IMG/VR virus record: IMGVR_UViG_3300020170_000019
Location: 1 to 21,482 of that record
Source of the DNA: a virus
DNA: 21,482 bases
Strand: one strand, 5' to 3'
The translations under genes and the position numbers were made by a program. This document shows, piece by piece, positions 3,562 to 15,020 of the stretch; positions within the stretch are counted from its first letter, which is position 1, and each line of letters opens with the position of its first letter. The notes under the pieces are model-generated. The model did not search any database and was not told where the DNA came from. It was given only the letters and a program-made list of their open reading frames with translations.

Positions 3562-5410
3562 TCGTATATCTCCTGAACGTTTGCAGTATCTTATACAAAT
3601 TGCAGAACTTCGTAAACGAAATCAAAAGGAAAATACAAATGATGATGCCATACACACGAATACAAATGATATACGATCTTCTCAGTCAGAAGAAGATAAC
3701 CCCAAGCTTCTGCAAGAAACTCCTACACAAACTCAACAAACCTTGGAAGAACCAAGAGAAAAAGAAGAAGGAAAAAGAACTCTTGGAGTTGCAAGAGTTG
3801 ATCTTACGCTTAATGCAAAGCAAGAAGAAGCCATCAAACGCGGCATCGCAGGCGAGAACTTTATCCTTATTGGACGTGCAGGAACAGGAAAGACAACTGC
3901 TGCCGGATACCTTGCGCGCGAACTTATCAAAGAAGAAAGTATACCATCGCAATTAGGAAGAAGTACAAAGTATCTGCATTCTGAATCCCCAGGCGTTGCA
4001 ATCCTTAGCTTTACAAACAAAGCAGTTAACAACATTCGTCATGCAATGCCTCTAGAATTCAAACCACATACACTTACAATACATAAAATCCTTGAGTTTG
4101 GTCCTACATTCTATGAAGTATATGATGAAGTTAAAGGAGATTATGTAAAGAAGATGAAGTTTGAGCCTAAGAGAAATGCATTTAATCCACTTCCAAGCAA
4201 CTTAAAACTGCTGATCTTCGAAGAGAGCAGTATGATTTCTGTAGAACTCTTCAATCAGCTTATGGCTGCTTGTCCTCATAATCCTCAACTTATATTTCTT
4301 GGTGACATAAGACAGCTTCCTCCTGTATTTGGAACTGCAATTTTAGGCTTCAAGATGCTTGAACTTCCAATTGTTGAGCTTACAGAAGTCTATCGTCAAG
4401 CACTACGCAGTCCCATCCTTCGTTTTGCTCTTGCAGTAGATGATGGAGAATACAAACAACCTAATTTCTCTCCAAGTTCTGTAGTAAATCCAGAAACTAA
4501 ACGAAAAGAATTTGCAGTAAGTGCTTGGAATGAAGCAGTAGAAGATGGAACTCTTGTAATTCATCCTTGGCAAAAGCCGATTTCTGCTGATCATGCACTT
4601 ATGACAGTAACCAAATTCTTTGAGCAAAGACATAAGAATGGAGTTTGGAACTGTGATGAAGATATGATTCTCTGTCCATTCAACAAGGCTTTTGGAACGA
4701 TTGAAATTAATAAAGGAATTATGCAGTTTCTAGGAGAAGAACGAAAAGCGATAGTATTTGAGATTATTGCAGGATTTAATAAGCATTATCTTGCTGTTGG
4801 TGATAGAGTTCTCTACAACAAGGAAGATGCAATTATTACTGCTATTGCAGTCAACACTGAATACCTTGGTAAGCGTCCTAGACCTGCTAGCATTCATTTA
4901 GATCGCTGGGGGCATATGAGACATGCAATGACAGAAGAAGAATCTAAACAACTGCAGGAAGGAGAATCTGCAGCGTTTGATGTAGATGCTGTAGAGAAGT
5001 TTCTTGAACTTGCAGCAGATAATGTAGAAGAACGAGTTACTTCTGCTTCTCATGTAGTTACTGTGAAGCTAAAATACAGTGATGAAGCAGAAGAAATAGA
5101 CTTAGAAGCTGCAGCAGAAATCAATAACTTGCTGGGAGGTTATGCAATTACAATTCATAAAGCCCAAGGCTCTGAATGGGATAATGTATATCTTCTTATG
5201 CATAACTCTCATGCAGCAATGAATCAGCGAGAATTGCTTTACACAGCAATTACCCGAGCAAAGAAGATGCTATACTTTCTTTGCGAGCCGGATACTCTCA
5301 TTAAAGGAATACAAAGCCAGAAGATCAAAGGCGATACACTTGCAGAAAAGGCAGAATGGTTCAAGGGAAAGAAGGAAGAAATGGATAAGAAAACTATAGG
5401 AGAAAACTAA
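3554..5410 (+). CDS. Dda/RecD-like superfamily 1B DNA helicase
   Basis: This is an ATP-dependent DNA helicase of the Dda/RecD2 type, expected to unwind DNA 5' to 3' during phage replication or recombination. Numbering from a GTG at 3551: Walker A GRAGTGKTT at 108-116, motif Ia-like AILSFTNKAV at 150-159, motif II LLIFEESSM at 220-228, motif III GDIRQLPPV at 251-259, motif IV-like LTEVYRQ at 277-283, motif V region GGYAITIHKAQGSEW at 529-543, and motif VI YTAITRAKK at 564-572. The order and spacing are typical. Motif II has Glu-Glu where Asp-Glu is usual. Residues 20-75 are Asn/Thr/Gln/Glu-rich and probably disordered. I prefer the ATG at 3554 over the GTG three bases earlier because of the AAGGAA spacing. 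The next gene starts on its stop (TAATG). Confidence 0.93.
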   Translation: MDNRISPERLQYLIQIAELRKRNQKENTNDDAIHTNTNDIRSSQSEEDNPKLLQETPTQTQQTLEEPREKEEGKRTLGVARVDLTLNAKQEEAIKRGIAGENFILIGRAGTGKTTAAGYLARELIKEESIPSQLGRSTKYLHSESPGVAILSFTNKAVNNIRHAMPLEFKPHTLTIHKILEFGPTFYEVYDEVKGDYVKKMKFEPKRNAFNPLPSNLKLLIFEESSMISVELFNQLMAACPHNPQLIFLGDIRQLPPVFGTAILGFKMLELPIVELTEVYRQALRSPILRFALAVDDGEYKQPNFSPSSVVNPETKRKEFAVSAWNEAVEDGTLVIHPWQKPISADHALMTVTKFFEQRHKNGVWNCDEDMILCPFNKAFGTIEINKGIMQFLGEERKAIVFEIIAGFNKHYLAVGDRVLYNKEDAIITAIAVNTEYLGKRPRPASIHLDRWGHMRHAMTEEESKQLQEGESAAFDVDAVEKFLELAADNVEERVTSASHVVTVKLKYSDEAEEIDLEAAAEINNLLGGYAITIHKAQGSEWDNVYLLMHNSHAAMNQRELLYTAITRAKKMLYFLCEPDTLIKGIQSQKIKGDTLAEKAEWFKGKKEEMDKKTIGEN

Positions 5411-7494: not shown

Positions 7495-7523
7495 TTGACA
7501 TTGACTCATCGCTTTGCTATACT
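7495..7523 (+). promoter_or_regulatory. Strong extended -10 sigma70 promoter
   Basis: TTGACA (7495-7500), a 17-base spacer and TATACT (7518-7523, five of six) with TGC directly before the -10 (7515-7517) make a near-consensus extended promoter. Start of transcription would be near 7530, giving a leader of roughly 60 bases before the gene at 7589. It is the best promoter I see in the window. Confidence 0.8.
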
Positions 7524-7588: not shown

Positions 7589-8236
7589 ATGAGCGAACAA
7601 GCTCAAGCTGCTGCAACAGGTACAGAAGGTGGATTCAAATTGAATCTCAAGCATTATGTTCTCGTTCCCCAAAAGTTTTCCTTCAAGAAAGATGAACTAG
7701 GTAACAAGCGTCCGACTGTAGAACTTCAGCTTCCGAAGCCTACTTTCGACGGCATTCTTGCTGCAATGGAGAATGAAAAGCAAACTCAATATATCATCGA
7801 CTGTGTTTTTGCAGACCAAGTTTCTCAAGCTAAAGAGCAAGTAGGGCATGAAACAAAGCCGGTGAATACACAAGAAGAACTCGATATTAGCAAGCTTACT
7901 ATCGATGCAATTGCAAATCTTCCTCCTTCCGAACGCAGGGGAGCTGGAATCTCCAAGGAAACTTGGAAACAGTTTGCAGAAGATTACATTGCAATCATGC
8001 CTGCGCTTCAAGGCAAGAGTATCGAGAATGTTACCAATGCTGCAAAGATTTTTGTTGCACGCATGCAACCTTGCAAGACGAACAAAGCTGTTCTCAGTCG
8101 TCTGAAGGATTACATGAATCTGTATTTCCAAAAGACAAGCCTTCAGGAAGATATGCAGGAAGTCTACACTTTCCTTAGCGGGAAGATTGAAGACTTTCTC
8201 AAGCTGGATGACGCTACACTTCTGCAGAATCTCTAA
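7589..8236 (+). CDS. 215-residue probably abundant early phage protein, unknown function
   Basis: The start MSEQAQAAATGTEGGFKLNL has a TGGAGA ribosome site and lies under the strong promoter at 7495. Codon use (AAG, ATC, TTC, CGT) and a local G+C near one half differ from neighbouring genes and suggest high expression. The N-terminal third looks beta-rich (HYVLVPQKFSF, PTVELQLPKP) and the rest helical, ending LDDATLLQNL. There are no membrane segments or enzyme motifs. An ssDNA-binding or host-shutoff protein would suit the expression level and the position before the recombination module, but neither is shown. The leftward 222-residue protein has a similar overall plan. A structured non-coding block starts right at its stop codon. 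Confidence 0.85.
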   Translation: MSEQAQAAATGTEGGFKLNLKHYVLVPQKFSFKKDELGNKRPTVELQLPKPTFDGILAAMENEKQTQYIIDCVFADQVSQAKEQVGHETKPVNTQEELDISKLTIDAIANLPPSERRGAGISKETWKQFAEDYIAIMPALQGKSIENVTNAAKIFVARMQPCKTNKAVLSRLKDYMNLYFQKTSLQEDMQEVYTFLSGKIEDFLKLDDATLLQNL

Positions 8237-8595
8237 GCGAGTTCCTCCTTCTCGCAAAGAGTAGTTAGATGATTCAATGGGTCAACATCTCCAAGACTTA
8301 AATCTTGTAGCTTGATGTTGTGAATCTCTAGCCGGGAGAGAATTCCTCAAAAGGGAGTTTTCTCTTCGGGTAGATTGCAGAAGTCAAGTGATTCTGTTAG
8401 GTTCGGTAGAAATCCGATTAAATCTCCCTCATTGAGATTGAGCCTAATAATCTACTTTTACTAATTCTCGTGCTCAATTACCAGTCTGACGCGCGGTCTT
8501 ATAATGACTGGTTAAAGTCCTAGTGTACTAAAAAACTTTCGGTGATGAAACTAGGTTGCAGATAATCGATTCTGAGTATCAGGACACTGCATAAA
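8237..8595 (+). ncRNA. Candidate structured RNA region between two genes
   Basis: This 394-base gap (8237-8630) has no gene but many clean stems. They are: GCGAG/CTCGC (8237-8255, loop TTCCTCCTT); a long composite stem GATTCA, CAACATC, CAAGA (8271-8296) with TCTTG, GATGTTG, TGAATC (8303-8326); a roughly 16-bp hairpin at 8332-8370 (one G-G mismatch); CAGAA/TTCTG (8378-8396); AATCTC/GAGATT (8421-8439); ACCAGT/ACTGGT (8480-8512) around GAC/GTC; CCTAGT/ACTAGG (8519-8555); and TGCAG/CTGCA (8557-8591). No intrinsic-terminator U-run follows any stem. It may be one RNA, or a 3' processed end plus the leader of the downstream gene, since a promoter may lie at 8478. It is not a tRNA, and no known riboswitch was recognised. 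Confidence 0.5.
8478..8505 (+). promoter_or_regulatory. Possible sigma70 promoter for the DHH gene, overlapped by an inverted repeat
   Basis: TTACCA (8478-8483, four of six), a 16-base spacer and a perfect TATAAT (8500-8505) would start transcription near 8512, about 119 bases before the gene at 8631. The ACCAGT/ACTGGT inverted repeat (8480-8485 and 8507-8512) brackets the -10, so it could be an operator rather than an RNA stem. Confidence 0.45.
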
Positions 8596-8630
8596 AACCG
8601 AATTCACTCGTAAAAAGGAGAAACAATAGT

Positions 8631-9464
8631 ATGAGTAATACACTTTGCATTTATCACGGCAACTGTGCAGACGGCTTTGCTGCAGCATGGGTAGTAAGAA
8701 AGTTTTATAAAGAAGTATACAGTCGAAACGATATTGAATTCCACGCAGGAGTTTATCAAAATCCTCCTCCTGAAGTCAAAGGTAAAAATGTAATTCTCGT
8801 TGACTTCTCCTACAAACGTCCAATTCTGGACAAAATGAAACAAGAAGCAAACTCTATTCTTATTCTAGATCATCATAAAACTGCAATGGAAAACTTGCAG
8901 GAATTTGAAGGAGCAATCTTTGACATGAATCGTAGTGGAGCTATGATTACATGGAATCATTTTTTTGCAAATCAAGAAGCTCCACAACTTATAGAACATA
9001 TTCAAGACCGTGACTTGTGGCAATTCAAATTACCAGGAACAAGAGAAATCCAAGCTGCAGTCTTCAGTTATCCTTATGATTTTGAAGTCTGGGATGAATT
9101 AATGAAAACTGATCCTTTACAGCTTTTTACTGAAGGTACTGCAATTGAGAGAAAACACTTTAAAGATATCAACGAACTTCTCGCGGTCTGTAAAACAAGA
9201 ACAATAATTGCAGGCTATGATGTTCCAATTGCAAATCTTCCATATATATTCAGTAGTGATGCAGGACATATAATGGGAGTAGGAGAGCCTTTCGCTGCAT
9301 GTTATATGGATACTCCAGAAGGAAGAGTATATAGTTTGAGAAGTTCAGAAGTAGGAGGAGTAGATGTAGGAGAAGTTGCAAAACTTTTTGGAGGAGGAGG
9401 ACATAAGCATGCAGCAGGATTCAGAATTCCCTACAATCAAATTCAAGAGCTAGAAAAAGCTTGA
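8631..9464 (+). CDS. DHH-DHHA1 family phosphoesterase
   Basis: This is a metal-dependent phosphoesterase of the DHH superfamily, which includes RecJ, NrnA-like nanoRNases and cyclic-dinucleotide phosphodiesterases. Visible motifs: YHGNCADGFAAAW (8-20, metal ligands H9 and D14), VDFS (57-60, D58), the name-giving LDHHKT (79-84), QDRDLW (125-130), and the C-terminal DHHA1 signature GGGGHKHAAGF (254-264), which binds substrate. At 277 residues it has the size of the compact cytosolic members, without RecJ's extra domains. The ribosome site AAAAAGGAG lies about nine bases upstream. Likely substrates are short oligonucleotides, pAp or cyclic dinucleotides; which one cannot be told from motifs. It may recycle nucleotides or remove host defence signals (inference). 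Confidence 0.9.
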   Translation: MSNTLCIYHGNCADGFAAAWVVRKFYKEVYSRNDIEFHAGVYQNPPPEVKGKNVILVDFSYKRPILDKMKQEANSILILDHHKTAMENLQEFEGAIFDMNRSGAMITWNHFFANQEAPQLIEHIQDRDLWQFKLPGTREIQAAVFSYPYDFEVWDELMKTDPLQLFTEGTAIERKHFKDINELLAVCKTRTIIAGYDVPIANLPYIFSSDAGHIMGVGEPFAACYMDTPEGRVYSLRSSEVGGVDVGEVAKLFGGGGHKHAAGFRIPYNQIQELEKA

Positions 9465-11371: not shown

Positions 11372-12293
11372 TCCTACTCAAATCTCCCTGCTTAAACTTC
11401 TTTCTCATTCATCTAATGAGACAGTAGAACGCTGTCCTCGCAAATATGAACTCTATCGCTTAGGTCCGAAAGGAGAAGAAAAAGAAGATTCTGAAGACCT
11501 TAGTTTTGGTAAGATTGTAGGTATAGGAGTTCAGAGTATCTTCATGAAGGAAAGTAAGGAAGTTGCAATATGGAAGATGTTCCTCGCATGGAAGCGAAAC
11601 TTATTTGATGAAGATGGAGAAAAGAAAAGAAAGACTTTTTGGTGGGCAATGTATGCATTTGAAAAGTTTCTTCCTCATTTTGCACAACTCTCAGTAAACT
11701 ATGAACTTGTATATGTAGATGGCAAGCCAGCAGTTGAACTTGGATTCCGAGTTTTCTGCTTGGATGATTTTAAAGTAAGAGGATTCATAGACTGTGTTCT
11801 ACGAGATAAACGAACAGGTCAACTCCTTGTATTTGAGTTAAAAACTACAAGGTTTAAAGAAGTACATCCTGCAATGTATAAAAATTCAGGACAAGCGTTG
11901 GGGTATAGCTTGATTCTGGATTATGTAAGTCAGAAGTTAGGAATAGCATTGGAGAGTAGCTTCAAGGTGTTATACTACGTCTACAAGACTTCATTGTGTG
12001 AATACGAAGCCCTTCCCTTCCCAAAGTCTCATTTGCAAAGAGCAGTATGGATTAAGAGTATAATGCAAAAGACAGAGCAGATAGGAAAGTATATAGAAGA
12101 TGGAATCTTTCCTATGCATGGGTGGAACTGTTTCAGTTTCTCGCAGCCTTGTCAGTTTTTTGATATCTGTGAAATGAATACAGAATTGCTTGTGGAGAAG
12201 AATCCAAAAGTAAGAGAAGAAAAAGCAGAAGATTTTAGCTTCAACATTAGTCTCATTGATCTTGTTAACTCTCAGCTTGCGAAACATCATTAG
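11361..12293 (+). CDS. PD-(D/E)XK exonuclease with Fe-S cluster cysteines (RecB/Cas4-like)
   Basis: This is a RecB/Cas4-type nuclease, expected to process DNA ends in recombination. Numbering from the ATG at 11361 (310 residues): N-terminal SPTQISLLKLL (4-14) and C25-PRKYELYRL, the catalytic core GFIDCVLRDK (141-150, D144), FELKTT (158-163, E159 and K161), and the conserved QALGYSL (178-184). C-terminal cysteines C257, C264 and C270 together with C25 have the arrangement of AddB/Cas4 4Fe-4S clusters, where one N-terminal and three C-terminal cysteines close the fold. A TTG just before the ATG is an alternative start. The order nuclease, helper, Sak4-like ATPase suggests a recombination module. 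Confidence 0.88.
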   Translation: MIYSPTQISLLKLLSHSSNETVERCPRKYELYRLGPKGEEKEDSEDLSFGKIVGIGVQSIFMKESKEVAIWKMFLAWKRNLFDEDGEKKRKTFWWAMYAFEKFLPHFAQLSVNYELVYVDGKPAVELGFRVFCLDDFKVRGFIDCVLRDKRTGQLLVFELKTTRFKEVHPAMYKNSGQALGYSLILDYVSQKLGIALESSFKVLYYVYKTSLCEYEALPFPKSHLQRAVWIKSIMQKTEQIGKYIEDGIFPMHGWNCFSFSQPCQFFDICEMNTELLVEKNPKVREEKAEDFSFNISLIDLVNSQLAKHH

Positions 12294-14156: not shown

Positions 14157-14627
14157 ATGAGTGAACAACAGTTGAGTGCAGAAGAAAAAGCAAAACTGGA
14201 TGCAATGAGCAGCTTGCTTGATGGAACTCTGGATGATATTGAAGATTTGCCAGGGTTTATACAACTTCCTACAGGAGCATACAAGGTAAAGTTGGAAGAA
14301 GGCTTCAGGCACAAGATTATCAACGCCAAGCCTGGAATTGATCTTCCAATGACAGTGCTGGAAGTCATTGAGCTTGGAAATCCTGAGCAGGCAGTAGAAG
14401 TAAAAGTAGGAGATATTGCTACTCTTGCCTGGATGATGGATAATGAAACAGGAAAGGGGTTTTTCAAGGAAGCTATCCGGCCGATTTATACGTTTCTGAA
14501 TGCAAAGTCTTACAATGAAGCAATGACAAATGCAAAAGGTCTGGATATTATCATTGTAGTCGCAAGAGTACATAATAAAGAGAAGCAAAGAGATTTCATG
14601 CAACTGAAGAAGTTAACGATAGCATAA
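14157..14627 (+). CDS. Probable phage single-stranded DNA-binding protein
   Basis: The 156-residue protein has an acidic N-terminus (MSEQQLSAEEKAKLD, then LLDGTLDDIEDLPG) and a beta-rich core beginning LPTGAYKVKLEEGF, then LPMTVLEVIEL and VKVGDIATLAWMMD, consistent with an OB-like fold as in DUF669/DUF2815-type phage ssDNA-binding proteins. I see no conserved acidic C-terminal tail; the protein ends QLKKLTIA. Position downstream of a Sak4-like ATPase and upstream of DNA polymerase supports the call, because Sak4 and ssDNA-binding proteins commonly pair. CGGAG lies about 12 bases upstream of the ATG. A structured non-coding block follows. Confidence 0.6.
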   Translation: MSEQQLSAEEKAKLDAMSSLLDGTLDDIEDLPGFIQLPTGAYKVKLEEGFRHKIINAKPGIDLPMTVLEVIELGNPEQAVEVKVGDIATLAWMMDNETGKGFFKEAIRPIYTFLNAKSYNEAMTNAKGLDIIIVVARVHNKEKQRDFMQLKKLTIA

Positions 14628-14635
14628 TTGAAGAG

Positions 14636-14750
14636 CCTAGCCTAGTCCTCTAGGAAGTTAAGTAACTACACTCGCCCTGTAGGTGCTTAGCCGGTAACAG
14701 TCTAATATGTAAGTCATCACTCCCCTTTTTGATGCAATCTTAGACTGTTA
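14636..14750 (+). ncRNA. Three-hairpin structured intergenic region
   Basis: The 138-base gap after the ssDNA-binding-like gene holds three consecutive stem-loops. SL1 is CCTAG-TCCT-CTAGG (14641-14654, with a duplicated CCTAG at 14636). SL2 has TAAG and CTACA (14659-14670) pairing TGTAG and CTTA (14678-14689) around loop CTCGCCC. SL3 has a perfect 11-bp stem, TAACAGTCTAA (14695-14705) with TTAGACTGTTA (14740-14750), enclosing CATCA/TGATG (14715-14734). No U-run follows SL3. It could be a regulatory RNA or mRNA end, or DNA sites for replication proteins. Confidence 0.5.
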
Positions 14751-14765
14751 TTCGAGTAAGCATTT

Positions 14766-15020
14766 ATGTTACTTATAACACATTTAGCTTCTAAAATGCA
14801 AAAGTTTTATATAGATACAGGAAAACTACCTGAATCTATATATGTAGGAACTATAGCTTATAGAACAATCTGTTGTGAAATTAAGGATGAATTAAATTCT
14901 AGCGTAAAAATAACAATTCAAGGATTAAAAATTAATGCTATTCCTATTTTAGAACATCCAATACTTCCTCCCAACGAAATACTTTTTAAAGGAGAAATTC
15001 CTTATGCCTGCCGGTTTTGA
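14766..15020 (+). CDS. 84-residue unknown phage protein
   Basis: The ATG lies 16 bases after the perfect inverted repeat, without a clear ribosome site. The sequence has KFYIDTGKLPESIYVGTIAY, a strand set VKITIQGLKINAI, and HPILPPNEILFKGEIPY. The 'P-x-x-IYxG ... I-x-GL-x-I ... ILPPNEIL' look is like small conserved phage proteins of unknown role. The C-terminus overlaps the next gene by 17 bases. Function unknown. Confidence 0.65.
   Translation: MLLITHLASKMQKFYIDTGKLPESIYVGTIAYRTICCEIKDELNSSVKITIQGLKINAIPILEHPILPPNEILFKGEIPYACRF

Follow-up and report, generated by a model that had tools for sequence, protein, structure and literature searches.

The virus record analysed here, referred to as the window over its whole length of 21,482 bases, carries early genes on the plus strand and minus-strand genes at both ends. 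Between gene 7589, which encodes a protein conserved in a phage family, and the gene for a DHH phosphoesterase lies a gap, 8237-8630, that a first-pass annotation of the sequence had described as a structured block free of genes (Table 1). The absence of a gene holds: the six frames of the gap contain short open stretches only, the longest of which runs 46 codons between stops and is without a relative. The short gap peptides likewise had no relative among the loci compared, and a decayed gene was rejected on these grounds. A promoter-like TTACCA-16-TATAAT at 8478-8505, within the part of the gap that lacks structure, may serve the DHH operon; the count of promoter-like sites in the gap is not above that in shuffles.

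Table 1. Coordinates of genes, signals and folded elements around the gap of the window, and examples of two elements found in related phages
Feature	Position	Strand	Description
Sigma-70 promoter of gene 7589	7495..7523	+	TTGACA-17-TATACT; 11/12 consensus match
Gene 7589	7589..8236	+	215 aa; without known family
Small hairpin	8237..8255	+	GCGAG-UUCCUCCUU-CUCGC; directly 3' of stop codon; z -4.0, 0/300 shuffles; not stable in all contexts
Composite stem	8263..8332	+	core 8271-8296 / 8303-8326, 19 bp, three helices; z -3.3; robust in four contexts
Long hairpin	8332..8370	+	8333-8347 / 8353-8368, 14 bp; z -3.4, 0/300 shuffles
Branched domain	8370..8460	+	8396-8404 / 8440-8448 around hairpins 8405-8415 and 8421-8439; z -3.0, 1/300 shuffles
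Leader of DHH gene	8461..8630	+	unstructured; z -0.03
Ribosome binding site of DHH gene	8616-8621	+	AAGGAG; inside the leader
DHH phosphoesterase gene (phrog_4771)	8631..9464	+	next gene after the gap
P1, examples in the family	L104:2187-2218; L128:4514-4545; L151:4874-4905		also L169-L316 for other phages
E2, examples	L102:5271; L104:2247; L111:4332; L119:4855; L130:5095; L217:4729

Fold of the intergenic RNA

When the entire record is scanned in 200-nt windows, the plus strand of 8201-8400 folds best (z -6.4, the runner-up reaching -3.8), and the minus strand of the same stretch gives z -4.1. The excess of structure is confined to the first part of the gap. On the coding strand, 8237-8460 has z -4.6 and none of 300 shuffles folds as well, whereas 138 of 300 shuffles equal the fold of 8461-8630, which resembles a simple leader of the gene that follows. 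The first-pass annotation had extended the block over all 394 nt (8237-8630), for which the comparison with shuffles yields z only -3.0; the structured block is real, yet shorter than first stated, and ends at 8460.

Helices were regarded as robust if they kept P>0.5 in four sequence contexts. The core of the composite stem, the long hairpin, and the closing helix of the branched domain with its two inner hairpins did so, which amounts to about five helices stable in every context tested rather than the at least eight stems counted before. The composite stem of three helices (8271-8326) had been recognised correctly. The hairpin assigned to 8332-8370 is present as well, with 14 bp rather than about 16. 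In the small hairpin behind the stop codon, the loop reads UUCCUCCUU and includes CCUCCUU, the anti-Shine-Dalgarno sequence of 16S rRNA.

Searches for relatives of the RNA

No family of Rfam 15, including tRNA, tmRNA, group I intron, riboswitches, ROOL, GOLLD and others, matched the gap at gathering score; the gap remained without a match at a permissive E of up to 5, and ARAGORN run on the gap found none. The block is thus no tRNA, tmRNA, intron or riboswitch known to Rfam, in agreement with the first-pass annotation, which had recognised none. Neither a Rho-independent terminator (a G+C-rich hairpin followed by a T run) nor iteron-like or tandem repeats were found in the gap; 9-nt repeats are at chance level. 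Phage sequences searched at the nucleotide level with the gap as query yielded nothing, and in L083, the single close phage produced by direct searches (polymerase 85% identical), the contig begins at window position 8976, just beyond the gap. On the evidence of these searches, the RNA of 8237-8460 is one of no known RNA family and with no known relative.

A structured slot in the phage family

The protein of gene 7589 alone as query gave one chance match, L082, and nothing was gained with Sak4 or the gene at 5410 as queries or with an exonuclease profile in bacterial genomes. A profile made from an alignment of three polymerases recruited the wider family, about 80 related contigs, of which 40 carry a homologue of gene 7589 with 28-57% identity. 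Most of these homologues are followed by a non-coding gap of under 100 to about 600 nt, and in L142 the next gene after the gap is a DHH gene, as in the window. In contig L086, the matches to the exonuclease and Sak4 genes are fragmented and fall on both strands, which suggests a chimeric or broken assembly.

Among 33 testable relatives, the best sigma-70 match upstream of the homologue reaches at least 10/12 in 25, and the same test gave 0, 2, 0, 0, 2 and 0 for six control genes. The 150 nt 3' of the stop codon have a mean z of -2.4 in 35 family loci, which are kin and not fully independent although obvious near-duplicates were left out. Values upstream, and downstream from 225 nt on, range from -0.3 to -0.9, and the means behind five other conserved genes from -0.1 to -0.8. 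Only the gene at 14157 is followed by sequence of similar structure (14628-14860 and the same place in relatives; mean z -2.05), and there the sequences inspected are mostly terminator-like hairpins with T tracts. Structure in the slot is weak or absent in some relatives, e.g., L102 and L116. Since the slot behind gene 7589 is structured and the gene has its own promoter, we regard promoter, gene and structured tail as one unit.

The first-pass annotation also offered a replication or packaging site, for which the block would act as DNA. Both strands do carry inverted repeats, and the minus strand of the slot folds nearly as well as the plus strand in the family (mean z -2.1). Yet the coding strand folds better in the window (-6.4 vs -4.1), the position is fixed to the end of one gene, and the gap is devoid of iterons and tandem repeats. 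The proposal thus gained no support and appears very improbable.

The elements P1 and E2

Occupants of the slot differ between relatives and comprise an element termed P1, an element termed E2, and other structured RNA. P1 is a 27-nt H-type pseudoknot with the consensus NNUC-CU-GRGCA-Y-GANN-NWAAAC-UGCYC; it has two helices and holds CCU, CAYG and AAACUG in fixed register. One or two copies occupy the slot in 21 family loci, about half of the relatives that carry gene 7589. In 17 family sequences, 98.7% of helix cells are paired as compared with 76.9% in shuffles, six pairs show two-sided changes, and slid versions are far worse. The P1 pattern was found in at least 120 stretches of IMG/VR, lying in intergenic spacers of numerous unrelated phages, and in 28 stretches in bacterial genomes; among the named records that match are the cyanophages S-RIM4 and S-EIV1, a Mycobacterium phage, Paracoccus phages, a Moorella phage and a Microviridae genome. 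Among the matches listed, the stem is fully paired in 181 of 193 instances, and 97% of 184 distinct copies form the pseudoknot pair (-2, 11) (46% expected), for which all four Watson-Crick types occur. In about one third of the copies among these listed matches, a stop codon precedes P1 by 8-14 nt, and many copies are followed by a tRNA gene or by the ribosome binding site of the next gene.

Neither a family for P1 in Rfam nor a description of it in the open-licence literature was found. A role as stop-codon readthrough signal was rejected because the frames after the stops are mostly closed. The STAXI motif, likewise a small pseudoknot with no assigned role, is described as occurring in two to three repeats (PMC2864571). 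It was compared with P1, and identity of the two was rejected because a two-copy P1 stretch gave no STAXI match at E up to 10.

E2 is an internal loop in which (A/C)UGGUAA stands opposite GCA(U/G)AAA between inner and outer stems. It occurs in about twelve non-redundant family loci and in L217, which is outside the family list. The base that opens one side covaries with the last paired base on the other, the two being either A-U or C-G, and the closing stem extends to 11-23 bp. Relatives without P1 that have one long hairpin right after the stop codon are L093, L142, L155, L166 and L167; the one in L093 has a T-rich tract after it and may be a terminator.

Both P1 and E2 sit in the same slot behind gene 7589 as the RNA of the window, E2 with a long closing stem and a conserved internal loop, but were not found in the window itself. 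Model R1 gives no credible match to P1 there, a P1 descriptor scores the gap no differently from shuffled gaps, and E2 has no match even with a relaxed descriptor, so that both were rejected as the window's element. The sole 8-mer common to the window and E2, GCATAAAA near 8590, is a hint at most. Because neither P1 nor E2 is present, the domain of the window is an orphan in a family-wide structured slot.

Discussion

We propose, tentatively and with a likelihood somewhat short of even, that 8237-8460 is a structured 3' untranslated region that fixes or protects the 3' end of an abundant 7589 mRNA and keeps this mRNA separate from the downstream operon. An early transcript would start at the host-type promoter and carry gene 7589, and the RNA of 8237-8460 would be transcribed together with it. 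The long stems would then fix or protect the 3' end of the presumably abundant mRNA after processing or exonuclease trimming, and the structured tail would set gene 7589 apart from the following operon. Several findings are consistent with this proposal: the best fold of the record lies on the coding strand and begins at the stop codon, gene 7589 has a dedicated sigma-70 promoter that recurs in its homologues, a terminator is absent from the gap, the slot is structured across the family, and the five relatives named above that lack P1 have a single long hairpin directly after the stop codon. A processed 3' end of an abundant 7589 transcript, as suggested in the first-pass annotation, therefore fits best of the three options considered there. 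The weak or missing structure in L102 and L116, the folding of the minus strand in the family and the possible terminator of L093 count against it. The fold appears to be under selection while its sequence turns over fast, in which case each phage lineage would have its own solution.

T7-like phages have intergenic RNase III processing hairpins between their early genes. The window resembles them in having long imperfect stems between early genes of a tightly packed podovirus-type genome and in the absence of a terminator, but it has several stems and a branched domain instead of one stem, and its sequence is unrelated as far as known. An RNase III site would be a long double-stranded stem that is cut in vivo; as predicted stems, the window has one of 19 bp in the composite stem and one of 14 bp in the long hairpin.

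The RNA could alternatively be a cis-regulator of the following operon, acting on translation or transcription in response to a protein or to the translation of gene 7589. Relatives lend some weight to this idea, as the E2 closing stem ends at the start codon of the following gene in nine loci, and in L142 the closing stem right after the stop codon includes GGAG with a pair probability of 0.99. In the window, however, E2 is missing and the 170 nt ahead of the DHH gene are without excess structure. Pairing of the DHH ribosome binding site with 8241-8250 is strong in the isolated 394 nt only and has P 0.06 or less in longer contexts, for which reason a hidden ribosome binding site was dropped. 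We consider a cis-regulator unlikely.

A stable small RNA that is cut from the 7589 transcript and acts in trans, e.g., as a decoy for a host RNA-binding protein, a nuclease or a defence system, would agree with the strong promoter, the dense stems and the quick sequence turnover among relatives, but no known small RNA was matched in Rfam, and we judge this possibility to be rather doubtful. It is improbable that the stems are leftover inverted repeats in spare sequence, functionless in this phage. The lack of a known homologue, the unstructured second half and 9-nt repeats at chance level would be in accordance with such remnants; the fold, however, stands well ahead of every other stretch of the record, structure recurs in the slot throughout the family, and genes are tightly packed.

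The comparison links an orphan phage RNA with a conserved expression unit of promoter, gene and structured tail, and its role therefore becomes testable. It is plausible, though we would not call it probable, that the slot behind gene 7589 is a site where the family exchanges functional RNAs. P1 would then be a widespread, undescribed class of 27-nt H-type pseudoknots that often follow a stop codon directly and that occur in podovirus-type phages, cyanophages, a mycobacteriophage and a Microviridae record. The 220-nt domain of the window would be a further class, hitherto unseen. The comparison also brought P1 itself to light, a small and very strongly covarying pseudoknot that recurs in unrelated phages and in a few bacteria and that Rfam lacks. 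Should P1 serve to protect or separate transcripts, phages would have in it a general tool of gene expression.

In phage contig L206, a 73-nt match (11486-11558) lies barely over the gathering score of the tmRNA family and covers the whole 374-position model with a large deletion. In the bacterial contigs L294, L299, L304, L306, L309 and L316, there is a tiny conserved reading frame whose end overlaps P1 and which has no match in Pfam or NCBIfam; it reads approximately MKRFxxPRVAHCxxGCxxxxSWA-stop and is followed by a terminator in several cases.
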